Source: Polytrichum commune (taxonomy: Eukaryota; Streptophyta; Polytrichopsida; Polytrichales; Polytrichaceae). Taken from it: a DNA stretch of 64,000 nucleotides. The translations under genes were made by a program, and so were the position numbers. The notes below the pieces were generated by a model. It had not been told where the DNA came from. It saw only the letters and a program-made list of their open reading frames with translations, and ran no database searches. Every line of letters begins with the position of its first letter. Positions within the stretch are counted from its first letter, which is position 1. Below, one piece after another: positions 1 through 45,893 of the stretch. Location of the stretch: assembly GCA_950295325.1 (NCBI GenBank), contig OX485803.1, positions 30,628,001-30,692,000 of the forward strand. Reading direction: 5' to 3'.

Positions 1-268
1 GTAAACAACACTCGGTACATGTCATGTAATTACAACTTGGATGATAATGCACATGTGCAAAAATCAGGTCTGAAGTGGCAATTCACCTCCAGATTTGCCA
101 GGCCAATAATCTACGGGTCATATGTTGCAGTTGTCTTTAAAGACAAACAGGATGATGCTCTTTGTTTCAAGCAGCTTCTTTCTTCGATGCAAACCCTAAA
201 CTGTCCATAAGAATGCAATTTGGTCAAGAGAAAGATAAAATTATGTCATGGTAGCATGAATGAGGTAC
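1..268 (-). other. Intron of the deaminase gene (partial)
   Basis: This stretch lies downstream of a clear splice donor on the minus strand (AAG followed by GTACC at 268-264). I looked for the next deaminase exon, which should carry the zinc-binding PCxxC motif, and did not find it here, so the rest of the gene lies beyond the left edge. A small plus-strand reading frame at 19-210 has no recognisable features. Confidence 0.6.
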
Positions 269-559
269 CTTTTGGATAGCAAGAATCTCCGCATGTGCTG
301 TTGGATCCTTCTGTTTTAACACCTCGTTGTGTGCTTGTGCAACTATCTCACCATTGCGCACTATCACAGCACCGAAAGGTCCTCCTTCCTCTTTATGGAT
401 GGCCGTCTCAGCCTCCTTGGCCGCCACAGTTAAAAACTTGTAGTCCACTTCATCTTCGTCGTCGTCGGAAGTGGCCCTCCTCTTCTTAATGTTCAGGATT
501 ACTTCCCTTGCTACAAGAAGTGCCGCAATTACTCCAACCACGGCCGGTTTCCACGCCAT
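269..559 (-). CDS. Guanosine/guanine deaminase-like protein, first coding exon (partial)
   Basis: The exon encodes 97 residues of a cytidine-deaminase-fold enzyme. Residues 40-97 hold the family core GGPFGAVIV, the segment HNEVLKQKDPTAHAEILAIQ and the first half of the zinc site, HAE, with His89 as zinc ligand and Glu91 as proton shuttle. The pattern is closest to the plant guanosine deaminase family, which hydrolyses guanosine to xanthosine in purine breakdown; guanine deaminase is the alternative. The second half of the zinc site (PCxxC) must lie in an exon outside the window. I chose the Met at 559-557 because a possible splice acceptor (pyrimidine-rich tract, then TAAG) lies just upstream; an upstream Met at 625 is in frame but probably intronic. 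Residues 5-24 form a hydrophobic stretch followed by KKRR and an acidic run, which looks like a membrane anchor. As I recall it, the Arabidopsis enzyme lacks this. Confidence 0.8.
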
Positions 560-1346
560 CTCTTCTTCTGGTTCTACACTTACAAAAGAACCAATTCTTT
601 TAAGACTCCTATTATTTAAGGTCAATAAACGCTCTCAAAGACCACAGAGACATCCCAGATTACTTACTGCATTTCTTCCAATGTCCTCAATATTGGTCAG
701 CTAGCTATGGTCCAGACCCTTTCAATACTTGCGGTTTCTTGGAGACATACAAAATGGATAATAAGAATAACAACTAAGAATGACGATATTTAGGTCTAAC
801 TCGTTCAATTCGTCAGATTGAAAACTCAAGGGCACAGGCTTTCTAATGCAATCTGTGGATATCGGAACACCGACTAAATTGCCTCTCACCTTCTTTTGTA
901 CAGCTTTACCGCCTCCTGCATCAACTTTTTTTTTCTTTATTTACTCTTTACAGTTACTTACACCGAACTTAATAATATGTTTTACATCGATGGAGAAGCC
1001 TCCGAGTCCTCACCTTGATGCAAGTTTCCAATTGCGAGATCTCGCGGACATGTGAACTTATCAAATTCCTACTTCGAGGGAACATTCAAGCAATACTCAT
1101 AGGTACAGGTATCTATCCTTGCCATTTAGAATTCTAAACACTTCATTGAGCACAAAACAGAGTGAAAATGGAGAAACCTGCCTCAAGAAAGAATCGCCAG
1201 ACAAAATTCCTCAGCCGGATCTGCGCACAAAAATCTTGGTAATTTCAACGCTCTGAGGCTCCTCCCATTGCAAACCAAGAAAAAACAAAACAAAAATCTT
1301 TCACAAAATGCAAGCAACAATCGCACACAATCACAGAGAAGCTCAC

Positions 1347-15800: not shown

Positions 15801-16588
15801 GGAACTGATAATCACCTTGTGCTTGTTGATTTGCGATCCACAGTAAGTGCTCTTTGTGTGACTTGGGAAGTTGTGATTGTTGCCAGCTGTAGTTAAAATT
15901 TCATTGCAAGACAAAGTGGATATCCACACTACGGTATCTTCCAGTGACTGTTTGCATTCCAAATCTTATCATTAACTAGAGAAGTGCCTAATACACTACA
16001 GTCAACTTGTCTCAATAGCTACTTCACACTGATGGTGTCATTGATTTGGCAGGGGACAGATGGCGCTCGGTCAGAAAAGGTCTTGGACTTGGTATCCATC
16101 ACCCTTAACAAGAACTCTGTGCCTGGTAAGTTCAAAGTTAACATCTGTAAACTTTGCTATGTTGCATACCATGTGGCCATATATATCTGAGGTCATAAAC
16201 ATGGTTGTGTCAGCGAGTAATCTGAAGTTGAAAACCACTCGTCTGCTTGGCATGGTGTAACATAACACATGTTCCTATGTACATTGCAGGAGATAAGAGT
16301 GCCATAACTCCAGGTGGAATTCGTATTGGATCACCTGCTCTTACAACACGTGGGCTTCGTGAGACCGATTTTGTCAAAGTGGCAGACTTCATCCATGAGG
16401 GTATTGAGATTGCTAGAAAGGCAAAGGAGACCTGTCCAGGTACAAAGGTGAAGGACTTTTTGGAGTACGTCGAGTCTGATAGCTGCCAACAACATGGTGA
16501 CATGGTTGATCTGCGTAAACGGGTGGAAGCTTTTGCAACCCAGTTCCCCATACCCGGTGTTGGAACTGAGAACCTTCTCCAACACTGA
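9826..16588 (+). CDS. SHMT: Serine hydroxymethyltransferase, plastid type
   Basis: This PLP enzyme interconverts serine plus tetrahydrofolate and glycine plus 5,10-methylene-tetrahydrofolate. Eleven exons join in frame: 9826-10126, 12387-12582, 13165-13339, 13815-13932, 14217-14329, 14637-14759, 14858-14962, 15389-15475, 15735-15842, 16053-16125 and 16290-16588. All introns are GT-AG. The product is 565 residues. The PLP lysine is Lys342 in TTTTHK, at the exon 6/7 boundary. Other family blocks seen are [40 protein letters not shown] and [16 protein letters not shown]. The Ala/Ser-rich N-terminus ends in VVRASAA, a typical stromal-peptidase site, so plastid targeting is likely. I chose the ATG at 9826 for its GGCCATGGC context; an in-frame ATG at 9748 would add 26 residues. 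No frameshift or missing catalytic residue was seen, so the gene looks functional. Confidence 0.95.
10211..11400. repeat. Decayed tandem array filling SHMT intron 1
   Basis: A motif like GAATTGGACCGAATTTTTCT, then a CCATTTTCCATATGAAGAATGG-like block, recurs about nine times (near 10220, 10311, 10470, 10635, 10706, 10900, 10971, 11167 and 11260). A second motif, CTCGAATTCTCGCATTCAAG, then GGACGAGACA and CTCCTCCTCC, recurs about five times between them. Spacing is irregular (about 70-260 bp), so the array is old or built from two interleaved units. The first copies begin about 90 bp after the intron 1 donor. Confidence 0.75.
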
Positions 16589-32080: not shown

Positions 32081-32509
32081 CAGTTACTTGTTGTGAGATT
32101 TTGGTTTTTATTTATTATTATGAATTGGAAGTATATTCCATAAGTCCTTCTAAATAATGGATACTTTTTCGGAAGTCTTGAACTTCAATCAACTGTTCTT
32201 CAAACTCAGCCGGTTCATCTATAATTAGCGGTCAGTTCTTCCCATTCATTGCCTCCTAGTTGCCATCAGTCAAATGAGAACTACACTCTAAACTTCGTAA
32301 TATCATGCATGTGGCAATCGAAGTGCACGTGATATTAAGGAGTTTTGTAGTGTTAATGTGGATGCGTGATAAAAATAAAAATAAAAATTGGTTTAGCCTA
32401 TCACATTATGAAATAACACAAAGTCAACATTGCATTAATGACAAAATTGACAATGATGTCAACATGATGTGTGCAAGCGTGTGGTTTGAATCTTTTGGTG
32501 GTTGATTTT
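32081..32509. other. Gene-free stretch
   Basis: Nothing recognisable apart from its right edge, where the satellite array begins. Confidence 0.4.
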
Positions 32510-33224
32510 ATTGACAAAACCCATGATATATGGGAGGGGAACATGACAACATGGAGTGGGAAATAAACTGAGAACATCCGTTCCCTAAGGTTTCAGGATG
32601 CAAGAGAAGGAATGCAATTAAGGAGGTTGGTATTACAAAGTTTAGAGTATACATGCACAAAGTCAAAATTCGAGCTTGAAGATCAAGCGGCAGGCAACAA
32701 GTAGCAAGCAACTTGATGTCAACGTAATGTGTGCAAGCGTGTGGTTCGAATCTTTTGGTGGTTGATTTTAATGTCAATACCCGTGATACATGGGAGGGAA
32801 GCATGACAACAAGGAATGAAATGTAAACTGAGAACATCCGGTCACTAAGTTTTCAAGATACAAGAGAAGGAATGACATTAAGGGGGTTGATATTACGGAG
32901 TTTAGAGTGTACATGCAGAGAGTCAAAATTTGAGCTTGATGGCTGATTGTAATGTCGAAACCCATGATACATGGGAGGGAAACATGATAACAAGGAGTGA
33001 AATGTAAACTGAGAACATCCGGTCGCTAAGGTTTCTGGATACAAGAGAAGGAATGACATTGGGGGGGTTGATATTACAAAGTTTAGAGTGTACATGCACG
33101 GAGTCGAAATCTGAGCTTGATGGTTGATTGTAATGTCAAAACCCATGATATATGAGAGGGAAACATGACAACATGGAGTGAGATGTAAACTGAGAACATC
33201 CGGTCGCTAAGGTTTTAGGATACA
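32510..33224. repeat. Satellite array, left part (about 181-bp units)
   Basis: Units begin at GGATACAAGAGAAGGAATGA-like sequence near 32597, 32857 and 33038. The last two are 181 bp apart; the first is longer because of an insertion. The array resumes at 43145 after the LTR retrotransposon. Overlapping minus-strand frames through the units are by-products of the repeat. Confidence 0.85.
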
Positions 33225-33557
33225 TGTCACGGTATACGGCGTCGAAGGCCGCACCTTATCCGTTGGGTTTCATCCATCTAGATTTGGATGGATGAATCTA
33301 GATGTGGAGAGGAAGGCTCCTAAGTGAGGAGCCTCCTCCTTGGCTTGGCATTCTTGCCAAGTCAAGTCTTGTGAGTTAGTGTGTGGAGAGAGCTTGTGTG
33401 AGGTGTAGATTGCATGATTTTGCAATAAATCTTGAGTTCTTCTTCCCCTACTTACACTCTTGGATTCTCCCTTGGTGGAGTGAGAGATAGCTTGATTAAT
33501 TTGTGTACATTTGAAGAGATTTAGAGCTATTGTGAGTGTTCTACTCTCTTCCTTCTC
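33225..33557 (+). repeat. 5' LTR core (333 bp)
   Basis: This segment appears identical, base for base, to 42706-43038. It includes an AATAAA signal near 33424, as expected for an LTR R region. After 33557 the left copy continues ACTTGGCAAGAATGC, whereas the right copy continues TGTCGAGGTG. The left LTR may continue to about 33666, where ACGACA again occurs, which would make it about the same length as the right core plus its 106-bp block (439 bp). No U3-like 106-bp block precedes the core here. Confidence 0.85.
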
Positions 33558-35089
33558 ACTTGGCAAGAATGCTTGATTCCTTCTCTTTTCTTCAAATCTT
33601 GAGCTACAACATTCAAGCAAGAGTGTGAGGACAAGTGGTGGCGGGATTGTGGAGTGGAGAACGACAAACATCGCGGATTAGCGGAGCAACAAGAAGAAAA
33701 ATGTGTGCTTGTGGAGTTTACACATCATTGTGAATTGTGGTGAGAAATCTCTAAATACTACACGGAATTTCTTGCCATGAGTTGCCCACAAGCATGAATT
33801 TGTGAAGTGAAAGTTGTGGGGACATTCTTGATCCTCAAAAAGGGATCAAGTTTTGAAAAATAAAAATAAAATAAAAACAAATACTTGTTGTCGTTGCTGC
33901 TGCTGTCCCTGCTACTGCTGTTGTCCCTGGTATAGTTGCTGCTGGCAAACCTGCTGCCGTGCCCAGCGGCTGCCTGCGGCTCGCGGCGGCTGTCTGCGGC
34001 TCGCGGCGACTGTCTGCGGCTCGCGGCGGCTGGCTGCGGCTCGCGGCGGCAGTAGGCCAGAGCGGCAGACTGCAGGCCAGGGCAAGCAGACAGCAAGCCA
34101 GACCATCCAGGCTGCAGGCTAGAAGAGGGAGCCCGAGGAATGATTCCGGAGATAGAGCCTCAGCGGCTGCCACATCCAAGGAAGGTAGCAGGCGCACACA
34201 TTACCCGATTCCGTTGCTAACGGAGGTAGATTTTTATTTTGTTTTATTTTGTTTTAATTAATTAATACATTAATGAATTAAAACCGGATTTTATTTATTT
34301 ATTTATTTAAATAATTAAAAACCGGACTTTTTATTATTAATTAATTAATTAATTAATTTCATGTTACCTTTCAACTTCTCATCTTTCCTTCTCTCTCTAA
34401 GAAGTCAATTTCTAGGGGATTAAGAAATATACTTGAGATTTCGTTTGGGGGTTGTGTTGCACGAAATTTCTGAGGAGGATGTCATTGGAGATTGGATGGC
34501 ATATGGGATTTCCGTTCGGCTTAGAATAAATTATTATTAGGGCCGAATTGTGTTTGTCAACACATATTCCCGACATTGTTGTGAAGAGGGATTTCTAGGT
34601 AGTAGTGGGGAGATGAGAGATGTGCATTGGTGCCAATTTCTTTTCTTAAGCAACAGGGGCTCTTCATTTTGACCACCAACTGCAGGCGGATGCCAGTTGG
34701 TTGCGGTCGTTTTCAATTTTTGCTTGAATGTTGTTTTGGGGAAGAGGATCCAGTGCTGTACTTGCATTGTTTCTTGTATTTTGTTTTGGTACCTTCCCCT
34801 GTGGCGGGCTGTAGTGCTGGAGTGTTCTAGCACTGCCCCATTTTGTGTAGTCCTAGATTGTGATAGGGTACTGTGGAGGTGAGGTCGGATTAATGACCGA
34901 CGGGACCTTTGTTTGTGCACCAAGTGGGCGGTGCTTGTTTTCACTTGTGGTGAGGCTGGGTTAATGACCAGCAGACCATAAGTTTTGGTGGTGATTGCAG
35001 GTGCAGGTTGCCTTTGACCATTTTTCTCTTTGTAACTGGATACTAATTCATTTGGGTTGTTGATTCGGTGACCATCCCATTGTGGGTTT
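33558..35089 (+). other. Long untranslated leader of the retrotransposon
   Basis: About 1.5 kb separates the LTR core from the Gag start. It holds four 20-bp GC-rich tandem units at 33968-34047 (core TGCGGCTCGCGGC), a strongly AT-rich TTAATTAA block near 34250-34360, and many short upstream ATGs. The primer-binding site, dimerisation signal and packaging signal should lie here, but none could be identified with confidence. Confidence 0.6.
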
Positions 35090-38000
35090 ATGGTTACAAC
35101 TCGTACTCAACATTATCGTTCTCCGTCCCCAGGAGCATCGGAAGGTCATCCCTCGGACCTCTCGGACGTTGAACCAGTGGTAGCACCCAACGAGGCTTTT
35201 CAGCCTACTTCGGCGTGGGGGACTATCACTCGGTCGCACGTCCTGTGGGTGGGAACCTTTGACGATATGGAGGAGGAGACTAGGGGAGGGATACGGGACC
35301 GGTTTTCCGGTCGAGCAGGGACCATTTCTCTGCAAGACTGGAAAATCCGGTTTCGTACGTGGATGCGAGAGAAACGCCAACGCAATACTAATTTTAACGA
35401 TTGGTATGCGTTCGAGCTTCTGCCTCAGCATTTGGAGCATGAAGCTCTCCAAACTTATGAGCAGTGGACGGACACTCATTGGATGGAGCTGCGCCAGGTG
35501 GAGCGGTACTGGGAGACTCGGGTTGAGTTGGTATCCGCATTGAAGGAAGGCGCAGCTTCCAGTTTCATGGCCGTCCCTGAGGTTAAATCGGAGGTGCCGG
35601 ATGGAGTATTTGTGGTGGATGTGGAGGGAGCTTTTCCTATCAATCCCACGGCTCAGGGCCAAGCTCCCGCAGCAGCGAGTACCTCGAGCCCCATTCTTCC
35701 ACTGTCACGTTATGCCCAGGCTACCCATGCGGCATTAGCTTCTTTAGGAGTTCCGCCGGGTTTTGATCCTCTACATGAATTCCAACTCCATTTGGAGAAG
35801 GAATATGGAGGCTTCCGCCGCGATCAAATGCAGCGTATACAGGACTTTCGACGGGAGAAAGATGACACACCTCGTACCATGTACACGAGGTTGGCGAGGG
35901 AATCTGGAGGTGTTTTCGCCGAAAGCCAGTTGGTAAAGGTGTTTTTGTCCAAGATTGACAAACGCCTCCTTGACTTGGCACTGCCCAAGATCATCATGGA
36001 TTATGGTGGTCGGGCGACACTCGCAGAGGCATTCGCCATTGTGGAGCAGTGTGATCGTGCGTTGTGTCAACACGATGCCACTGATTTGGTGTCTCTGCTA
36101 GTAGATTCTAGCAAATCCCGAAGAGTTCCGGTTGCGGCTGCAGGATTGGCGGAGGCCGAGGTAGACAAGACCATGTATTGTTGGTCTTGTGGGCAGGCCG
36201 GCCATGCTAAGAAGGACTGCCCTTCGAAGCAAAGGCAAGCCCAGACCGTCACTACTCCGAAGCGGAAACCATTTGTTCCCGCTAAGGGCTCGGCGAAGGG
36301 GACGACAGGTAATCAGTTACCCAAGCAGTTGAAATGTTCTCATTGCGGGCGGAACAATCACGCAGTAGAGAACTGCTTTGTTCTCCATCCTGAGAAACGT
36401 CCTTCTTCCGACCGGGAGAAGACGTTGGAGGCGAAGATTGGAGCCATGGAGGAGAGGTTCAAAAGCTTGGCGTCATCCGGCCAAATCTTGGCCTCACCGT
36501 CTTCCTCCGGAGCTCAGGCTAGTTCTTCCACTCCGGATTACTATATGTTTGGAGCCTTGGGCGAGGTGGTGAGTTCCGCGGCCGTGACACGTGCTCAAGC
36601 CGTGTCACAATCCATACCTTCGACCACAAATGAATATGTGGCAAGCTCGCGAGCTCGAGACAATGCGCCCGCGGACCAAATTGGTCAGGCACGACTACCA
36701 TTATCTTTTGGATTGGCCGATGCCGTCCAATCTGTCAGTGGTCGTCATCCGAACGATGAGGTTTCACATTCAACGACCGATGTGGCGCACACGTTGGCAT
36801 CCAAGGTGTTGCACACACCTTTGTTCACGGCCATGGAGTGGTCATCGCCAGAGTTCCAACCTGCTAAGATTTTTCACTTAGCAGGTAGGATTTTGGAAGG
36901 GAAGGCATCCTTACCTTCTCTGACCGTGGCTCAAGCCACTACGGACATTCCTGCTTCCGAAGATCCTGAGGATGTGGCCAAATGGCGAGCGAGACTTGCG
37001 GCAGAGACCATTGCGTCTTTTGACGCACACGCCTCAGATGACAAGGCACCGACCACGTCTTATGACTACCCAGTATCCGCGGGTGCAGCCTATCTGTCTG
37101 ATGTCGCTGCTAGACCTGTCTGCGAACGCCGCGGCATTCGACCCGGCGTTGTGCGTATGGTGAATGATACCGGAATTTTGGTGGTCAGTCGTACTGGGAG
37201 CAACGCTACTCGGGTTGCTCCCCGTTGTGTGATGATGGATTCAGGGGCACAGCCAGTTATGATCGGCAAGAGGCTTGCCCAAGAGTTGAGGTTGACGGCC
37301 GAGGATTTGGCTCCCTGTCCATTCACCATTGTCACATCCATTGGTCACGTGGAGCAAGCCATGGGTTATACTCGAGAGCCATTACAGCTTAGCTTCCGAG
37401 TGAAGCCTGGAGATTCACCCGCACCTCTTCTTCTTAGGTGTGCGGTGACGGATGCGACCAACTATGACATTTTAGTTGGTCAGCAAGCACTTTACCCTCT
37501 TGGTTTTGGTTTGGACAACTGGACTGAAGAGGCGTGGATCCGACCAGGTTGGTCGGCTGGGGATGGCCGCAGGGAACTTATTCCCGTTGCTTTCGCGGCG
37601 GCCGCGACCATAGCACCATTATCTATGGTTTTTGGATGTGGTGCTATGGTGGACACATTGCCTTATGGTTCCGCATTGTTGGAGGAGTCATTGGCATTCA
37701 TGGGGAGTACAGACGATCAACGGGATATAACACCTAAGAATGCATTGGTGCGCCATCCCAAGGATTCCCTTCGTCCTTGGCGTGATTCCGCCGAGCTATT
37801 TCGGAGGTGCGAGGATATTGTTCACTCTCTCACTCCTAGAACACCGGTTATGCCGGGTGTCCTCTCGGCATTGGCACATCCCATTTTATGGCAGCCGCCA
37901 GACGCGGGAATTACTTTGGTGGAACTGTTTGGGGGCATCGGCACAGGCTTAGCGGCCGTATTGGAGGCTGGCCTCACGGTTAGACGGTATGTCTATGTGG

Positions 38001-39166
38001 ACAACTCTCAAGTGTCCACCTGTGTGGCTCGTCACCATCTTCACCAATTGATGGTATTGTACCCCCAGCAGTTATCTCCAACTGCCATTCGTGGGTGTTT
38101 TTCACGTCTCCCTCGTGATGTGACACTCATCAGTGAGGCCGATTTACGACACTTAGGTCCGGTGGATATGGTGATTGCGGGATGGCCATGCCAGGGCCAT
38201 TCACGTGCTGGAGCCGGCCGAGGTCTAGAGGATCCCAGGTCTAATTTATTTTGGGACCTCATCCGCCTCATGCAGTGGTGGTTTTCCCACCAACATACCC
38301 TGCCAGGGTATATCTTCGAGAATGTACCATTGTTGGGAGACTCTCGGGACAAGGTGTTGAAAGGCGATTATTATGTTCGTCAACACCTTGGAGATCCCAT
38401 TTTTGTGGATGCCGCGAGCATTGGTTCTTATGCCCACCGGCCTCGGTGGATTTGGACCAACCTCGCACCGTCATCTATTTTAGCTGCAGCATTTTCTGCA
38501 GTGTCTCCACCTTTGGATCAAAAGGTGGATGACATCTTGGAGCCAAACCGGACTTCTTTGCCGGTTGTTCGAGATGATTTACCCCCGTTGGCATTGGTCA
38601 ACAAAATCGGGGCACCGCGGCGGGCATTTCCCACATTTATGACGTTTCCACAGTCATTCGCTTTTCGCGATAGGGGGCCGGGTATGGTGTGGGATGTTCA
38701 CACCAAAACCCACACCGAACCATTGGCTGATGAACGGGAGCGTGCCATGGGATTCCGCACTGGCACCACCGCAGCTCCCGGCCTTTCTGAGGGCCAACGA
38801 CGCTTCGTGTTGGGCCAAGCTATGGATCTTCATACCATGGTGTGGACTGTTGCTTTATGCCTTTCATTGCAAAGGCATCGTGGTGACCAGTGGTTGTCTC
38901 TGGGGGCAGAGGACTCTGGTCAGGGGGCACAGCGGTCCACACCCATGGAGGAGGGAATTCACGCCATGGTTGGAGAAGTCGAACGAATTTTTCAATTCAA
39001 GCAGCATGTGATGGAGGAGCTTCGAGCTCAACATGTTTACACCGCTTCGGTTTCTTCGCCTCCGGTGGTGGCTTCATCATCACATATTGGTGGTGATGAA
39101 GAACTGTCAGACTCTAGTGCTAGCACCGATACTGGGGGCATAGTTAATGCCCCCTCCTCTCATTAG
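35090..39166 (+). CDS. Gag-protease-C5 cytosine methyltransferase polyprotein
   Basis: This is a 1358-residue ORF. Residues 1-360 are Gag-like; two CCHC zinc knuckles follow, CWSCGQAGHAKKDC (364-377) and CSHCGRNNHAVENC (416-429). An aspartic protease lies around 700-800, with active site MDSGAQ (Asp717) and a later YDILVGQQAL. A C5-MTase fills 938-1265 in the conventional motif order: motif I ELFGGIGTGLAAVLEAGL (945-962), motif IV GWPCQGHSRAG with catalytic Cys1034, motif VI ENV (Glu1077), motif VIII RPR (1117-1119), and motif X GQAMDLHTMVW (from 1242). All catalytic motifs are present. Motif IV is PCQ, as in DNMT1/CMT and bacterial enzymes, not SPCN as in DNMT3/DRM. The order excludes the rearranged DRM type, and no chromodomain lies between motifs I and IV. 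The ORF ends in UAG, directly followed in frame by pol. The enzyme probably methylates element DNA or target chromatin; that role is inference. Confidence 0.93.
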   Translation: MVTTRTQHYRSPSPGASEGHPSDLSDVEPVVAPNEAFQPTSAWGTITRSHVLWVGTFDDMEEETRGGIRDRFSGRAGTISLQDWKIRFRTWMREKRQRNTNFNDWYAFELLPQHLEHEALQTYEQWTDTHWMELRQVERYWETRVELVSALKEGAASSFMAVPEVKSEVPDGVFVVDVEGAFPINPTAQGQAPAAASTSSPILPLSRYAQATHAALASLGVPPGFDPLHEFQLHLEKEYGGFRRDQMQRIQDFRREKDDTPRTMYTRLARESGGVFAESQLVKVFLSKIDKRLLDLALPKIIMDYGGRATLAEAFAIVEQCDRALCQHDATDLVSLLVDSSKSRRVPVAAAGLAEAEVDKTMYCWSCGQAGHAKKDCPSKQRQAQTVTTPKRKPFVPAKGSAKGTTGNQLPKQLKCSHCGRNNHAVENCFVLHPEKRPSSDREKTLEAKIGAMEERFKSLASSGQILASPSSSGAQASSSTPDYYMFGALGEVVSSAAVTRAQAVSQSIPSTTNEYVASSRARDNAPADQIGQARLPLSFGLADAVQSVSGRHPNDEVSHSTTDVAHTLASKVLHTPLFTAMEWSSPEFQPAKIFHLAGRILEGKASLPSLTVAQATTDIPASEDPEDVAKWRARLAAETIASFDAHASDDKAPTTSYDYPVSAGAAYLSDVAARPVCERRGIRPGVVRMVNDTGILVVSRTGSNATRVAPRCVMMDSGAQPVMIGKRLAQELRLTAEDLAPCPFTIVTSIGHVEQAMGYTREPLQLSFRVKPGDSPAPLLLRCAVTDATNYDILVGQQALYPLGFGLDNWTEEAWIRPGWSAGDGRRELIPVAFAAAATIAPLSMVFGCGAMVDTLPYGSALLEESLAFMGSTDDQRDITPKNALVRHPKDSLRPWRDSAELFRRCEDIVHSLTPRTPVMPGVLSALAHPILWQPPDAGITLVELFGGIGTGLAAVLEAGLTVRRYVYVDNSQVSTCVARHHLHQLMVLYPQQLSPTAIRGCFSRLPRDVTLISEADLRHLGPVDMVIAGWPCQGHSRAGAGRGLEDPRSNLFWDLIRLMQWWFSHQHTLPGYIFENVPLLGDSRDKVLKGDYYVRQHLGDPIFVDAASIGSYAHRPRWIWTNLAPSSILAAAFSAVSPPLDQKVDDILEPNRTSLPVVRDDLPPLALVNKIGAPRRAFPTFMTFPQSFAFRDRGPGMVWDVHTKTHTEPLADERERAMGFRTGTTAAPGLSEGQRRFVLGQAMDLHTMVWTVALCLSLQRHRGDQWLSLGAEDSGQGAQRSTPMEEGIHAMVGEVERIFQFKQHVMEELRAQHVYTASVSSPPVVASSSHIGGDEELSDSSASTDTGGIVNAPSSH

Positions 39167-39172
39167 CAATTA
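39164..39172 (+). promoter_or_regulatory. Leaky stop codon, UAG CAA UUA
   Basis: The stop that ends the Gag-protease-methyltransferase ORF is UAG followed by CAA UUA. This fits the CARYYA readthrough context first defined in tobacco mosaic virus. The pol frame is the same frame, and its first in-frame ATG (39515) lies inside the RT domain, so separate initiation would truncate RT. Readthrough is therefore the simplest way to make pol, and it would keep pol at a few percent of Gag. Confidence 0.8.
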
Positions 39173-42100
39173 GAGTCCGTGCCAGCACCAGGTGGCTCTC
39201 TTCTAGTGGAAAGGGAGACCACAGAGTTTGATGATTGGCCACTTGAATTAGGCCCTCGTCTCACTGGTGCTGAGGCACGGAAGGTACGGGCATTTATTCG
39301 CTCGTACCGTAGATGTTTTGCTTTTAGCCTTCAAGATCTTGAAGGTTATAAAGGAAAACCCATCCACATTCAGTTGGAGGACGACCATCCCATTTTTCGG
39401 AGACCTTACAGGCTCAGTGTTTCCGAGCGGATTGGCGTTCAGGCTCGTTGCCGAGAGCTCTTGGCAGCAGGGCTAATCGAACTTTCCAACGGGGAGTATG
39501 CTTGTGCTACGGTTATGCCATCGAAGAAGGATATCTTTGGCAATTGGACGGAGAAGCGGATGTGTGGGGATTACCGTCCAGTTAATCGGAAGACCAAGTC
39601 GGATCGGTATCCCATGCCGATCCCGGAGGAGTTGTTCGATGCCATCGGATTTTCTCGGGTCTTTAGCACATTGGACTTGAGATCCGGATATCACCAACTT
39701 CCATTACTTACGGGAGATCGGGTGAAAACCGCATTTTGGGGAGTTGATCAAGATGGGAAAGATCAACTTTATTATTGGAAGTTTCTTCCATTTGGCCTAA
39801 AGAATGCACCAGCTGAGTTTCAACGGGTGATGGATCAGGTTCTCTCTGGCTTGCCCTTTGCTCGGTGTTACATAGACGATGTGATCATCTTCAGTACAAC
39901 ACCACAGGAGCATGTGAGGCATTTGCAAGCCGTTTTTGAACGGTTGCAGCGGTGGGGACTGCGCTTGCACCACGGCAAGTGCAAGTTTTTCCATGACCGG
40001 TTGGCATATCTGGGGCATATGATTGTTCCAGGAGGTCTTGGGGTACAACAAGCTAAGGTGGACGCCTTGCAGAAGATTCCGGCACCGGTTGATGTGCCGA
40101 GACTTCGTGCTTTCTTGGGCTTGGCGAATTACTATCGGCGATTCGTCAAGAACTTTAGCTTGATCGCCAAGCCTCTCACCATTCTCACGAGCAAGGACCA
40201 ACCGTGGACTTGGGGTCGTGAGCAACAACAGGCGTTTGAGACATTGAAGCAGAAACTGGGTACGGCTCCAGTGCTTCGACGTCCAAATGTCTCCAAATCT
40301 TTCCAGTTGCATACAGATTGGAGTTCATTGGGTTTGGGAGCAGTTCTTACTCAGAAAGATGACGTTGGCCGGGAGTATGTTGTTGCTTACGCGTCGCGAA
40401 GCAACAACACGGCGGAGGCCAATTATTCGTCCTATGAGGGAGAAGCATTGGCGGCGGTGTGGGCTATTGCCCATTTCCGGCCATATCTTTATGGTCAAAA
40501 CTTTACTTTGGTGACTGACCATCAGCCGTTACGGTGGCTCATGGAGTCGGATAAGCTTACTGGCAAGCTTGCCAGGTGGGCTTTGTTGCTCCAGGAGTAT
40601 GACTTTGAGGTGGTACACCGTGCTGGGATTACCAACATGGATGCAGATGGACTCTCACGCAATCCAAGTCCTTCGGATGAGGACTTGACCGGGGCCAGGT
40701 GGCATGGAGATTGTGATCGAGAGGCGGTTCCAGGTTGGCACGCGGCTGCCTACCTCACTTTATTTTCTGGTGCATCTGTTGAGATTCCGATACAGGGCTC
40801 GGATGATGAGACTGAGCGGCCTCAAGCTATTGCGGATATATGGGAGGATCTTCCCGTATTGCATAAGCTTCAACAGGGTACCTTTCCTTTGTCTATTTCG
40901 GCAATGGAAAGGGATAGGATTGGACATCGAATAACAAGGTTCCGTTGGGAGAACGGTTTGTTATTTCGATTGTGGCCGGATGGGACAAGGCGTATTGTTC
41001 CTAGGCCGGATCAGAGGGCCTCCTTGGTGCGACAAGTGCACGAGGAACTTGGCCATTTTGGCATACGCAGGACACATTCGATGTTGCGTGGCCAATATTG
41101 GTGGACTGGCATGTATCAGCAGGTGGCTGCATATGTCGGGAGGTGTGAAGTTTGTGACCGGGTCAGGTCTAGCTTTAACACCTTATCGCCTCAGTTACAG
41201 CCCTTACCTATCATGGGATTAGGCTACCGTTGGTCGCTGGACTTTGCAGGGCCGTTGGTGGTTACACCACGTGGAGCAAAGTACGTTTTGGTGATGGTGG
41301 AGCATTTTAGCAAGTGGATTGAGCTTGTTGCTCTACCCCAGAACTCTGCAGAGTTGGCCGCGGCCGCCTTTTTGGATCGTGTGTTAGCACGTTTTGGAGC
41401 ACCAGCTGAGGTGTTGACGGACCAAGGGAGGGAGTTCCTTGGTGCTTTTGAGGAGTTGTGCACTAAGGCTCTCATAGATCACCGCACCACCTCTCGGGAT
41501 CATCCGGAGGCAGATGGCTTGGCTGAACGGGTTGTTCAGACAACCAAGCGTGGCTTGAGGAAGTATGGATTACTTCGGGGAAGCCACCGGGATTGGGACC
41601 TTATGTTGCCATGGATTGCTATGGGCTATCGATTTAGTAGGCAGGCCTCTTTGGCATCCTACAGCCCGTATCAATTATTGTATGGACGTGAGCCTATACT
41701 CCCGAGTTCTATTCGGGAAAAACTAGCTCCTGTTGTGAACTTGGATGACCCAGACCTTTGGGCAGAGTGTTTGCAGGAGCGGGCTCAATTCTTCCAGAGG
41801 GCCATGCCTATGGCCATGGAGAATTTGTCCATTGCTCAGCACCGTGACACATTGCGTTATGCACGCATTCGTAGTAGTGCTTACCGGCCTCAGTTGCGGA
41901 GATTTCGGCAAGGGGATTATGTTTATCTTCAACGTGAGGCGCCTACGACATTGGATGTCAGGGCGGGGCGCACTATCCTTCGGGTGAAGGAGGTGTTGCC
42001 AAGTGGTTTGTTGTTGTTGGAAGGCAAGGATGGCAGGGAATGTCGCGAGCATTCCAAAAATTGTGCCCCATGTCATCTACCTATTGAGGGTACAGTTCAT

Positions 42101-42313
42101 CCTGAATTGGCCGTCGTACCAGAGGGTCTTCCATATTTTGTGTGTGGAGAGAAGAAGGGAGCGGCTACTATGCTCTTGTGTGATCAGTGTCAACGCGGTT
42201 GGCACATGGCATGCTTGCGGCCACCCTTGACTTCTCTACCATCTGGACAGTGGAGTTGTCCTCGCTGTCGAGGATCTTCGGGAGTTGGTGCTTCCACCAA
42301 TCGTACTCAATGA
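39167..42313 (+). CDS. Pol: reverse transcriptase, RNase H, integrase and C-terminal PHD finger
   Basis: Residues are counted from the GTG codon at 39179. RT lies at about 60-300, with Asp166 in STLDLRSGYHQ and the catalytic YIDD at 231-234. RNase H is at about 375-500, with Asp380 in HTDWSS, then TDHQPLRW and MDADGLSR. Integrase has an HHCC zinc site (His621, His626, Cys656, Cys659) and the acidic triad Asp688, Asp748 and Glu783, with 34 residues between the last two. The C-terminus (989-1030) reads like a PHD finger: Cys989, CDQC (1001-1004), GWHMAC (1007-1012) and WSCPRC (1025-1030). Only one Cys of the usual first pair is evident. No chromodomain was found. Pol has no usable start of its own and should be a readthrough product, cut by the element's protease. 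Confidence 0.93.
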   Translation, partial: QLESVPAPGGSLLVERETTEFDDWPLELGPRLTGAEARKVRAFIRSYRRCFAFSLQDLEGYKGKPIHIQLEDDHPIFRRPYRLSVSERIGVQARCRELLAAGLIELSNGEYACATVMPSKKDIFGNWTEKRMCGDYRPVNRKTKSDRYPMPIPEELFDAIGFSRVFSTLDLRSGYHQLPLLTGDRVKTAFWGVDQDGKDQLYYWKFLPFGLKNAPAEFQRVMDQVLSGLPFARCYIDDVIIFSTTPQEHVRHLQAVFERLQRWGLRLHHGKCKFFHDRLAYLGHMIVPGGLGVQQAKVDALQKIPAPVDVPRLRAFLGLANYYRRFVKNFSLIAKPLTILTSKDQPWTWGREQQQAFETLKQKLGTAPVLRRPNVSKSFQLHTDWSSLGLGAVLTQKDDVGREYVVAYASRSNNTAEANYSSYEGEALAAVWAIAHFRPYLYGQNFTLVTDHQPLRWLMESDKLTGKLARWALLLQEYDFEVVHRAGITNMDADGLSRNPSPSDEDLTGARWHGDCDREAVPGWHAAAYLTLFSGASVEIPIQGSDDETERPQAIADIWEDLPVLHKLQQGTFPLSISAMERDRIGHRITRFRWENGLLFRLWPDGTRRIVPRPDQRASLVRQVHEELGHFGIRRTHSMLRGQYWWTGMYQQVAAYVGRCEVCDRVRSSFNTLSPQLQPLPIMGLGYRWSLDFAGPLVVTPRGAKYVLVMVEHFSKWIELVALPQNSAELAAAAFLDRVLARFGAPAEVLTDQGREFLGAFEELCTKALIDHRTTSRDHPEADGLAERVVQTTKRGLRKYGLLRGSHRDWDLMLPWIAMGYRFSRQASLASYSPYQLLYGREPILPSSIREKLAPVVNLDDPDLWAECLQERAQFFQRAMPMAMENLSIAQHRDTLRYARIRSSAYRPQLRRFRQGDYVYLQREAPTTLDVRAGRTILRVKEVLPSGLLLLEGKDGRECREHSKNCAPCHLPIEGTVHPELAVVPEGLPYFVCGEKKGAATMLLCDQCQRGWHMACLRPPLTSLPSGQWSCPRCRGSSGVGASTNRTQ

Positions 42314-42597
42314 TCCTGTGTGATTTTCATCATCTTGTGCCTGCCCAAATGGGAAATGAGGAGTTATGGCTTAGAGACGCAATTATCATGAGGCGGTGGA
42401 TTTAATTCTTTGGGATCTGATGGCCAAACATCAGAGGCGATTAAGGATGGGGCTCACCTTGCACCCAGCCTACAGTTCCTTGGAATAACGTTTACCACAC
42501 TAGTTAGTTGCGGAGCAATCTTTCATGATCCATGCCCTTTAGATTGGCATTGGTCCTAGCTGCTTGGCGGGACTCCATAGTCAGCTGAGGGGGGGCA
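42314..42597 (+). other. Retrotransposon 3' untranslated region and polypurine tract
   Basis: There is no reading frame of note. It ends in GCTGAGGGGGGGCA (42584-42597), a typical polypurine tract that primes plus-strand synthesis. The next bases are TGTCGAGG, so by the usual rule the 3' LTR should start at 42598. Confidence 0.75.
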
Positions 42598-42703
42598 TGT
42601 CGAGGTGTGTTGTTTATGTGTGACTTTGCTATGTTTTAGTGTTGTTTGTTAGTGGTGGTTGGTACTCGAGCTGCAGTGACACACGATCGCTATTTACACG
42701 ACA
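42598..42703 (+). repeat. 106-bp block, copy 1 (before the 3' LTR core)
   Basis: The block starts TGTCGAGGTGTG and ends TTTACACGACA, so TGTCG and CGACA form a short inverted repeat like LTR termini. It lies directly after the polypurine tract. The two bases GC separate it from the LTR core at 42706. An apparently identical copy ends the element at 43039-43144. No copy is found at the 5' end. Confidence 0.85.
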
Positions 42704-42705
42704 GC

Positions 42706-43144
42706 TGTCACGGTATACGGCGTCGAAGGCCGCACCTTATCCGTTGGGTTTCATCCATCTAGATTTGGATGGATGAATCTAGATGTGGAGAGGAAGGCTC
42801 CTAAGTGAGGAGCCTCCTCCTTGGCTTGGCATTCTTGCCAAGTCAAGTCTTGTGAGTTAGTGTGTGGAGAGAGCTTGTGTGAGGTGTAGATTGCATGATT
42901 TTGCAATAAATCTTGAGTTCTTCTTCCCCTACTTACACTCTTGGATTCTCCCTTGGTGGAGTGAGAGATAGCTTGATTAATTTGTGTACATTTGAAGAGA
43001 TTTAGAGCTATTGTGAGTGTTCTACTCTCTTCCTTCTCTGTCGAGGTGTGTTGTTTATGTGTGACTTTGCTATGTTTTAGTGTTGTTTGTTAGTGGTGGT
43101 TGGTACTCGAGCTGCAGTGACACACGATCGCTATTTACACGACA
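42706..43144 (+). repeat. 3' LTR core plus 106-bp block, copy 2
   Basis: Bases 42706-43038 match the 5' LTR core without visible differences. Bases 43039-43144 repeat the 106-bp block and end in CACGACA next to the target-site duplication. Counting from the polypurine tract, the whole 3' LTR would be 42598-43144 (547 bp); counting from the left end of the element, it would be 42706-43144 (439 bp). Confidence 0.85.
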
Positions 43145-44475
43145 TACAAGAGAAGGAATGACTTTAAGGAGGTTGATATTATGGAGTGTAGAGTGTGCAT
43201 GCACGGAGTTGAAATATGAGCTTGATGGTTGATTGTAATGTCGAAACCCATGATACATGGGAGGGAAACATGACAACAAGGAGTGAAATGTAAACCGATA
43301 ACATCATGCCCCTAAGGTTTTGGGATACAAGAGAAGGAATGACTTTAAGGAGGTTGATATTATGGAGTGTAGAGTGTGCATACACGGAGTTGAAATATGA
43401 GCTTGATGGTTGATTGTAATGTCGAAACCCATGATACATGGGAGGGAAACATGACAACAAGGAGTGAAATGTAAACCGATAACATCATGCCCCTAAGGTT
43501 TTGGGATACAAGAGAAGGAATGACTTTAAGGAGGTTGATATTATGGAGTGTAGAGTGTGCATGCACGGAGTTGAAATATGAGCTTGATGGTTGATTGTAA
43601 TGTCGAAACCCGTGATACATGGGAGGGAAACATGACAACAAGGAGTGAGATATGTCGAAACCCGTTATACATGGGAGGGAAACATGACAACAAGGAGTGA
43701 GATATAAATTGAGAACATCATGTCCCTAAGGTTTCGGGATACAAGAGAAGGAATGACATTAAGGAGGTTAATATTACAAAGTTTAGAATGTACATGCACA
43801 AAGTCAAAATCTGAACTTGATGGTTGATTGTAATAGGAGGGAAACATGACAACAAGGAGTGAAATGTAAACCGAGAACATCATGTCCCTACGGTTTTGGG
43901 ATACAAGAGAAGGAATGACTTTAAGGGGGTTGATATTACGGAGTGTAGAGTGTACATGCACGGAGTTGAAATCTGAGCTTGATGGTTGATTGTAATGTCG
44001 AAACCCGTGATACATGGGAGGGAAACATAACAACAAGGAGTGAGATATAAACCGAGAACATCATGTCCCTAAGGTTTCGGGATACAAGAGAAGGTATGAC
44101 ATTAAGGAGGTTGATATTACAAAGTTTAGAGTGTACATGCACAAAGTCGAAATCTGAGCTTGATGGTTGATTGTAATAGGAGGAAAACATGACAACAAGG
44201 AGTGAAATGTAAACCGAGAACATCCGATCACCAACATTTTGGGATACAAGAGAAGGAATGACATTAAGGAGGTTGATATTACAAAGTTTAGAATGTACAT
44301 GCACAAAGTCGAAATCTAAACTTGATGGTTGATTGTAATAGGAGGGAAACATGACAACAAGGAGTGAAATGTAAACTGAGAACATCCGGTCGCCAAGGTT
44401 TTGGGTCACAAGAGAAAAAATGACATGAAGGAGGGTGATATTACGGAGTGTAGAGTGTACATGCATGCACGGAGT
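43145..44475. repeat. Satellite array, right part (162-181-bp units)
   Basis: Unit starts (TACAAGAGAAGG) lie at 43145, 43326, 43507, 43740, 43902, 44083, 44245 and, altered, about 44407. The first three units are 181 bp apart and nearly identical, suggesting recent local duplication. Later spacings are 233, 162, 181, 162 and 162 bp. The 162-bp units lack part of the TGTCGAAACCC-CATGATACATGG segment. No gene is encoded. Confidence 0.9.
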
Positions 44476-45376: not shown

Positions 45377-45584
45377 TGAGAAATAACTGGTTTGAAGTTC
45401 GAGACTTCAGGAAAATCGCCGATCATTTTTAGAGGGATGTATAGAACATAACTCAAATCAGTGAAGAAAAACCGGAAGGTGTCAACATGTAACCGGTTGG
45501 ACTTGGAATCACTAGAATCTTGAATGATTGTGCCCAAAACTCTCTCCGGATAGAGATTAGCCACCAGCTACCTGCAGGCTTCGT

Positions 45585-45893
45585 GACAAAAAACCATACA
45601 TCTACGATAATGACAAAAGACCGTGGATCCACGAAAATGACAAAAGACCGTAGATCTATGAAAATGACAAAAGACCGTAGATCTATGAAAATGACAAAAG
45701 ACCGTAGATCTATGAGAATGTCAATAGACCGTGGATCTATGAGAATGACAATAGACCGTGGATCTATGAGAATGACAAAGATGGTAGATCTATGAAAATG
45801 ACAAAAGACCGTGGATCTATGAGAATGACAAAAGACCGTGGATCTATGAAAGTGAAGCCACCAGCACAACAACAACAACAACAACAACAACAA
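45585..45893. repeat. 27-bp minisatellite and (CAA)n tract
   Basis: About ten units of 27 bp (core AAAGACCGTAGATCTATG) run from 45585 to about 45857. Because 27 is divisible by three, they read open in a frame on each strand without being a gene. An (AAC)n tract follows at about 45865-45893. Confidence 0.85.

Follow-up and report, generated by a model that had tools for sequence, protein, structure and literature searches.

The 64,000-nucleotide stretch of Polytrichum commune DNA considered here (contig OX485803.1, positions 30,628,001 to 30,692,000 of the forward strand; below, the window) contains a young Ty3/Gypsy retrotransposon whose Gag-protease frame is closed by a DNMT3-class cytosine-5 methyltransferase (MTase). 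A reading made from the letters alone (the sequence-only reading) had placed a Gypsy element with a C5-cytosine methyltransferase at 33225-43144, and these are its exact limits: the element runs from TGTCAC to CGACA, with the 4-bp target duplication TACA right outside. It is not an element of the plain long terminal repeat (LTR) type: it has permuted repeats, a leaky-stop context, a self-primer and a PHD finger. The way in which its end repeats are rearranged suggests entry into the genome through a cut at an internal site, not at its natural ends. The picture that we favor, and consider rather probable when taken as a whole, is of a self-primed Ty3/Gypsy family that has long held its MTase, is cut by integrase at a palindrome in its left repeat, makes Pol by readthrough and turns the MTase on its own new DNA.

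Two repeats, A and B, each occur twice in the window copy, in the order A1-coding-B1-gc-A2-B2 (Table 1). Neither pair shows a single mismatch, and the copy is therefore young. There are two subfamilies: A is 333 bp long in the window's subfamily and about 432 bp in the other (subfamily 1). Identity from one subfamily to the other is 65% for B and 57% for A; inside a single copy, B1 and B2 share 98-100%. Of 11 MTase-bearing copies whose ends were read, 9 have the permuted order (the window copy and 8 of 10 others, picked for long ORF1 frames); the remaining two are simply A-coding-B, with the second A and B missing and target duplications present. (A note on sampling: a search with the segment B-gc-A-B as the query scored 40 rows, every one of which spans it completely, but these were drawn from 1064 candidates ordered by likeness to the query and are hence biased. 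Four further right-end stretches also hold it. Twenty left stretches were fetched for further copies; A is missing in 7, leaving 13 readable.) At the left, B is found in none of 24 stretches that contain A. Target duplications of 4 bp lie right outside TGTCAC/CGACA in 22 of 24 copies--9/9 of the A-coding-B-A-B copies chosen for their MTase, 2/2 of the A-coding-B copies and 11/13 of the further copies--and integration at those ends is therefore of the integrase kind. A duplication of this size (4-5 bp), and the order reverse transcriptase (RT)-RNase H-DDE integrase that a Pfam scan finds in Pol, are those of Ty3/Gypsy (Metaviridae) elements; the two identical full LTRs that should flank the coding region of such an element are replaced by A-coding-B-gc-A-B.

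Could this nonetheless be an ordinary LTR element with ends rearranged in the window copy, or a join made in assembly? The chance is negligible: the same order is met at many unrelated sites, each with its own target duplication, and the 0/24 left stretches with B speak in the same sense. A plain LTR element with damaged ends is ruled out by the permuted copies, by those left stretches and by the lack of upstream palindromes at 82 sites (below). That the MTase might be a one-off capture, missing from other copies, had been named by the sequence-only reading as what would overturn it, and a count of genomic copies had been called for: a Pfam search of the genome (407.8 Mb in 64 contigs, the window's contig being 77.9 Mb) yields at least 123 MTase stretches among 352 candidates, a lower bound from which the window copy itself is absent and in which some stretches may be host genes. 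For eighteen of the 123 the frame runs through 1,300 aa or more without a stop. This count, together with the same order in 9/11 copies, rules out a one-off capture or assembly join.

What primes reverse transcription? From its first base 3' of A1, the window copy's primer-binding site is the perfect complement of 15 nt within A; in six subfamily-1 copies the complement starting at that base is 13 nt, and it is also 13 nt in the relative L069 (64% identity in the MTase). The complement is at least 12 nt in 17 of 21 rows (the others have 9, 8, none and none). Primer site and target covary: the letters differ on both sides in three lineages. A primer site right after the 5' repeat, complementary to the 5' region of the element's own RNA, is the mark of Tf1-type elements, and complementarity to A is what self-priming requires; on this evidence the family probably primes itself.

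With the primer-binding site directly after A1 and the polypurine tract directly before B1, the repeat to be expected at the ends of the cDNA is therefore B-gc-A. The termini of this repeat, as inferred, vary by subfamily: A ends in CTTCTC or CCTCAT and B starts with TGTCGAGG or CTTGAAGA. Its internal junction, ACACGACA-GC-TGTCACG, is constant among the readable copies of the set read first and nearly constant in the further set (a single change in 3/30); the palindrome GACA-GC-TGTC at the B/A junction is found in L069 as well. We propose the following sequence of events: 1) Transcription would start in A1, and the element's RNA would prime its own reverse transcription. 2) Reverse transcription would yield a linear cDNA with B-gc-A at each end and with termini that go unrecognised. 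3) Integrase would instead cut the palindrome in the left repeat, 106 bp from the cDNA terminus, with loss of the two bases GC, and would join both halves to the target. 4) The host would then join the free A-end to the start of B, generating A-coding-B-gc-A|B. If both palindromes were cut, or if a one-LTR circle were used, the product would be A-coding-B.

Exact patterns searched genome-wide, namely the new junction (A|B, 49 sites), the boundary of A with the primer-binding site (A|PBS, 82 sites) and the palindrome (51), conform to this scheme. An A|PBS site lies 7-13 kb upstream in 23 of the 49 A|B sites; a palindrome lies 7-13 kb downstream in 25 of the 82 A|PBS sites; and A|B is found at 301-305 from the palindrome in 23 of 51. 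A palindrome 250-400 bases upstream of A|PBS, where a conventional, tandem or type II repeat would put it, is found at 0/82 sites, and the mirror form A-B-gc-A-coding-B, which would place A|PBS within 2 kb downstream of A|B, at 0/49. Conventional left ends, head-to-tail tandems and mirror copies are thus all unseen among these sites.

The missing mirror form bears on a different route, in which the cDNA ends are joined (A|B) to make a two-LTR circle that integrase then opens at either palindrome. Such a circle would account for A|B, for the loss of GC and for the target duplications; one-LTR circles would produce the two A-coding-B copies; and retroviral integrases have been reported to cut palindromic LTR-LTR junctions (PMC1905944, PMC1180852). 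In the circle, however, both palindromes are flanked by the same 106 bp of B and 333 bp of A, so that mirror copies should be about as frequent as the observed form, and the tally is 0 against 23. A randomly opened circle is therefore disfavored, and ranks second to the left-repeat cut as an improbable competitor. Less probable again is a route of the DIRS kind, in which a full-length RNA would reach from A1 to B2, the internal B-gc-A would splint a circle and B2 would be passed on through the RNA. The order A-coding-B-A-B does match that of DIRS elements (PMC5890265), but Pol has integrase core and zinc-binding domains and the Pfam scan finds no tyrosine recombinase; the 4-bp duplications of 22/24 copies, a primer site placed exactly after A1, for which the scheme has no use, and indels in 4 of 40 junctions read all fit it poorly.

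Several points weigh against the left-repeat cut that we prefer: 1) The absence of the mirror form is the sole ground for placing the cut at the left. 2) The A|B junction is hardly more variable than its A|PBS control. It is exact in 46 of 49 pattern sites (two exceptions have an added A, one a deletion inside A), and the control in 80 of 82; among the 40 copies read, three of the four indels are insertions (+A, +T, +TAT) and the fourth is a loss of 22 bases, with microhomology of CTTG. This is compatible with end joining without proving it, and an excess of indels at A|B, tried as proof of end joining, is unconvincing beside such a control. 3) B1 is not clearly nearest to its own B2 within the window's subfamily: in 30 copies it is the unique best match in 3, tied for best in 14 and not best in 13. 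Concerted evolution of B1 and B2 was considered; within the subfamily divergence is too small to decide on it; B1 of one subfamily is 0.65 identical to B1 of the other, and the two B repeats of a copy reach 0.98-1.00. 4) The A-coding-B copies could equally be deletions by recombination between B1 and B2.

ORF1 and Pol lie in the same frame, parted by a single TAG. The sequence-only reading had the MTase frame upstream of Pol, which is right as to order; the two are in fact one frame, broken at that codon. TAG is followed by CAATTA in the window's subfamily and by CAATCA in subfamily 1 and in L069. Leaky UAG stops in plants follow a CAR-YYA rule of the tobacco mosaic virus type, and TAG-CAA-TTA, judged by its letters, fits it. 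Of 12 copies tried, 10 could be read at the stop itself, and all 10 have TAG. When the codon is left free, 54 genomic sites are found and all 54 have TAG, although exact flanks favor little-diverged copies: the count is supporting, not decisive. The main product would be Gag-protease-MTase, with RT-integrase-PHD arising from occasional readthrough. The MTase is on the Gag side of the stop and would therefore be present at the level of Gag; one predicts a high dose of it in the particle.

Is it a genuine DNMT3-class enzyme? The motifs listed by the sequence-only reading are all there (I, FGGIGTG; IV, GWPCQGHS; VI, FENV; VIII, HRPRW; X, GQAMD), in one frame with Gag and protease as it had stated, and Pfam family PF00145 is matched above cut-off (E 1e-10). 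The catalytic residues that go with these motifs in the DNMT3 class are also in place: the motif-IV Cys in 55/55 trimmed MTases that cover the position, the motif-VI Glu in 56/56 (the window's and 55 matches). Profile comparison finds the nearest solved relatives in DNMT3A/B, DNMT3A first (2e-22), followed by DRM2 (2e-11), HhaI (1e-8) and DNMT2 (1e-6), and similarity to DNMT3A of this order speaks against the lack of an S-adenosylmethionine-binding fold, the other finding by which the sequence-only reading would have been overturned. As controls, two pieces of phage MTases retrieve bacterial enzymes first and no DNMT3 chains; they are N-terminal and, at 127-128 aa, shorter than the query. On the other side of the ledger, the phage MTase profile phrog_116 also matches the whole domain (residues 2-306, E 5e-21), and one subfamily-1 pair, of very low divergence, gives an MTase ratio of nonsynonymous to synonymous change (dN/dS) of 0.42. 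Two unsaturated pairs that include the window copy give 0.18 and 0.23 for the MTase and 0.145 and 0.15 for Pol; in the remaining comparisons silent sites are saturated. The window copy's silent divergence from two copies of its subfamily is 0.17-0.24 in the MTase and about 0.06 in Pol; such a gap could come from an exchange of MTase segments or from elements having recombined.

What is the enzyme for? For a DNMT made at the dose of Gag and kept by selection, the most plausible task would be to methylate the element's DNA ahead of integration or during it, inside the particle or as the new DNA leaves it. One can go further and suppose that integrase always cuts the internal palindrome of the left repeat, that the cDNA ends are abandoned, that each new copy hence comes out permuted and is repaired after insertion by joining A-end to B-start, and that a packaged DNMT3, marking the cDNA, is coupled to this obligatory detour; we offer this stronger version as a tentative conjecture, somewhat less likely than not to hold in full. 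The sequence-only reading had supposed self-methylation, to escape recognition by the host or to restrain copy number. The marks that methylation might have left are neutral to negative for this: CpG observed/expected is 0.75 in the element, higher than in its flanks (0.49 and 0.48), and among the transitions that separate paired repeats CG is not overrepresented (13/93, CG accounting for 680 of the 5838 cytosines). CpG decay was sought as a trace of self-methylation and is not seen in the compared copies. An alternative purpose is restraint: rather than protect cDNA, the enzyme would silence the element's own copies, and the element would benefit from doing its host less damage. This is one of the options proposed in PMC5890265, and the leaky stop, which puts the MTase on Gag, the product made in abundance, would serve it; the unseen CpG decay goes against it, though the compared copies are young. 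We think restraint unlikely. As to activity, de Mendoza et al. report in the same paper de novo CG methylation by SymbioDIRS enzymes and an inconclusive negative result for the Klebsormidium Gypsy enzyme in yeast.

The association of MTase and element appears to be old. Distances among MTases and among RTs are correlated (Mantel rho 0.60, 0/999 permutations, 31 proteins), which suits a long shared history. The named MTase relatives among the matches listed are from Marchantia, Closterium, Chromochloris, Chlamydomonas eustigma and Sphagnum, with no Klebsormidium among them. A tree, which the sequence-only reading had recommended (FastTree, 110 MTases, midpoint-rooted), groups the window's enzyme with unnamed sequences, then with Marchantia (support 0.99), then with Closterium (0.90). 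Its surmise that the element extends a phenomenon already described is borne out, the nearest named relatives being bryophyte and charophyte proteins. Gypsy elements with DNMT3 are accordingly no oddity of Klebsormidium: such proteins span chlorophytes to bryophytes. Closterium strains have many diverged MTase-RT polyproteins of this type (P0177, P0180, P0184, P0185 and others). Two relatives carry bacterial labels. L069 (CADCWO010000201.1), filed under a cyanobacterial metagenome-assembled genome, is a 9,285-bp contig that a 127-bp end overlap closes into a circle; it is either a eukaryotic contaminant that was binned with bacterial DNA or an assembly cycle that collapsed. P0056, recorded as an MTase of Candidatus Obscuribacterales, is 69% identical to the window's MTase, which suggests a misbinned plant element.

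The remaining features are collected in Table 1. In ORF1 the CCHC knuckle, plain as a motif, and the protease motif DSGA both fall under the Pfam cut-off; relatives P0013 and P0014 carry a precomputed Pfam protease. Pol, called intact by the sequence-only reading, does have RT, RNase H, integrase and a PHD finger, but the first zinc-ligand Cys of the last is Tyr in the window copy (it is Cys in seven other copies and relatives aligned). The element is inserted into a 181-bp satellite array, which continues on both sides of it (32495-33224 and 43145-44465). Elsewhere in the window are a tandem array of 27-bp period at 45562-45882 (about ten overlapping copies) and two host gene pieces, an exon of the cytidine/deoxycytidylate-deaminase type at 227-634 (-) and the last part of serine hydroxymethyltransferase at 16232-16585 (+).

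Table 1. Features of the element, in window coordinates
Feature	Positions	Strand	Remarks
Target duplication TACA, left copy	33221..33224	+	
Repeat A1, 333 bp, begins TGTCACGG	33225..33557	+	identical to A2, 333/333; contains self-primer and, as inferred, promoter region
Self-primer GCATTCTTGCCAAGT in A1	33348..33362	+	A positions 124-138; perfect complement of primer-binding site
Primer-binding site ACTTGGCAAGAATGC, from first base 3' of A1	33558..33572	+	15-nt perfect complement to A
ORF1: Gag, CCHC knuckle, protease, MTase	35090..39166	+	terminates with TAG
CCHC zinc knuckle, residues 363-379	36176..36226	+	E 0.003, below cut-off
Aspartic protease motif region, residues 714-742, DSGAQP	37229..37315	+	E 0.058, below cut-off
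DNMT3-class cytosine-5 MTase domain, residues 940-1290	37907..38959	+	
Putative leaky-stop context TAG-CAA-TTA	39164..39172	+	links ORF1 and Pol in a single frame
Pol frame: RT, RNase H, integrase, PHD finger	39167..42313	+	
Reverse transcriptase (YIDD)	39548..40024	+	PF00078 E 6e-30
RNase H-like domain	40289..40600	+	PF17917 E 5e-37
Integrase zinc-binding domain and DDE core	41006..41506	+	PF17921 E 5e-17, PF00665 E 4e-14
PHD finger	42140..42268	+	Tyr for first zinc-ligand Cys
Polypurine tract GAGGGGGGGCA	42587..42597	+	immediately 5' of B1
Repeat B1, 106 bp	42598..42703	+	identical to B2, 106/106
Palindrome GACAGCTGTC at B1-gc-A2 junction	42700..42709	.	putative internal integrase site
Repeat A2, 333 bp	42706..43038	+	
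Repeat B2, 106 bp	43039..43144	+	terminates CGACA
Target duplication TACA, right copy	43145..43148	+	

How much of this is new? The paradox that headed the sequence-only reading, a Gypsy element carrying a DNMT, is not: such elements have been known from Klebsormidium since 2018, and the paper that it named exists and says what was attributed to it (PMC5890265). DNMT-bearing Gypsy elements with DIRS-like repeats are also in that paper (Fig. 4c legend); PMC12344493 speaks of DNMT3 in "LTR Copia and DIRS" elements. According to PMC5890265, KnitGypsy-Dnmt3 of Klebsormidium nitens shares with the Polytrichum element a Gypsy pol, a DNMT3-class MTase, DIRS-like repeats and purifying selection. Its DNMT, however, is said to lie in the Pol polyprotein ORF, whereas here the enzyme ends the Gag-protease frame and would reach Pol only by readthrough of TAG; self-priming, target duplications, a palindrome, a leaky stop and a PHD finger go unmentioned in the passages of that paper covered here. 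SymbioDIRS-Dnmt3 of Symbiodinium, described there too, has the A-coding-B-A-B repeats and a DNMT3 domain in common with the window's element, but a tyrosine recombinase where the latter has a DDE integrase. The split direct repeats A-coding-B-A-B are shared with DIRS retrotransposons at large; these use a tyrosine recombinase and make no target duplication, in contrast to a family with a DDE integrase and duplications in 22/24 copies.

The self-primed Gypsy elements Tf1/Sushi and plant Tcn1 likewise have a primer site complementary to their own RNA; they carry a chromodomain, not a PHD finger, and the passages of PMC6317226 covered here say nothing of permuted repeats. The word "methyltransferase" occurs 0 times in that plant survey. 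Closterium (P0177), Chromochloris (P0034) and Chlamydomonas eustigma (P0055) have Gypsy polyproteins of the MTase-PHD type, compared here as proteins only, in which a homologous MTase adjoins RT/integrase and many of which have a PHD finger. MTase and Pol often form one unbroken frame in the relatives (P0022, P0029, P0177 and others), unlike the window's frame with its TAG. A Gypsy element with permuted repeats, opened at a palindrome, was not met in a literature search confined to one paper collection. As far as these searches show, what is new is the spread to bryophyte relatives and an anatomy that combines the self-primer, the one-sided permutation, the constant palindrome, the 4-bp duplications, the leaky stop and the PHD finger. 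The DIRS-like repeats of DNMT-bearing Gypsy elements, hitherto unexplained, thereby acquire a candidate integration mechanism that can be put to the test.

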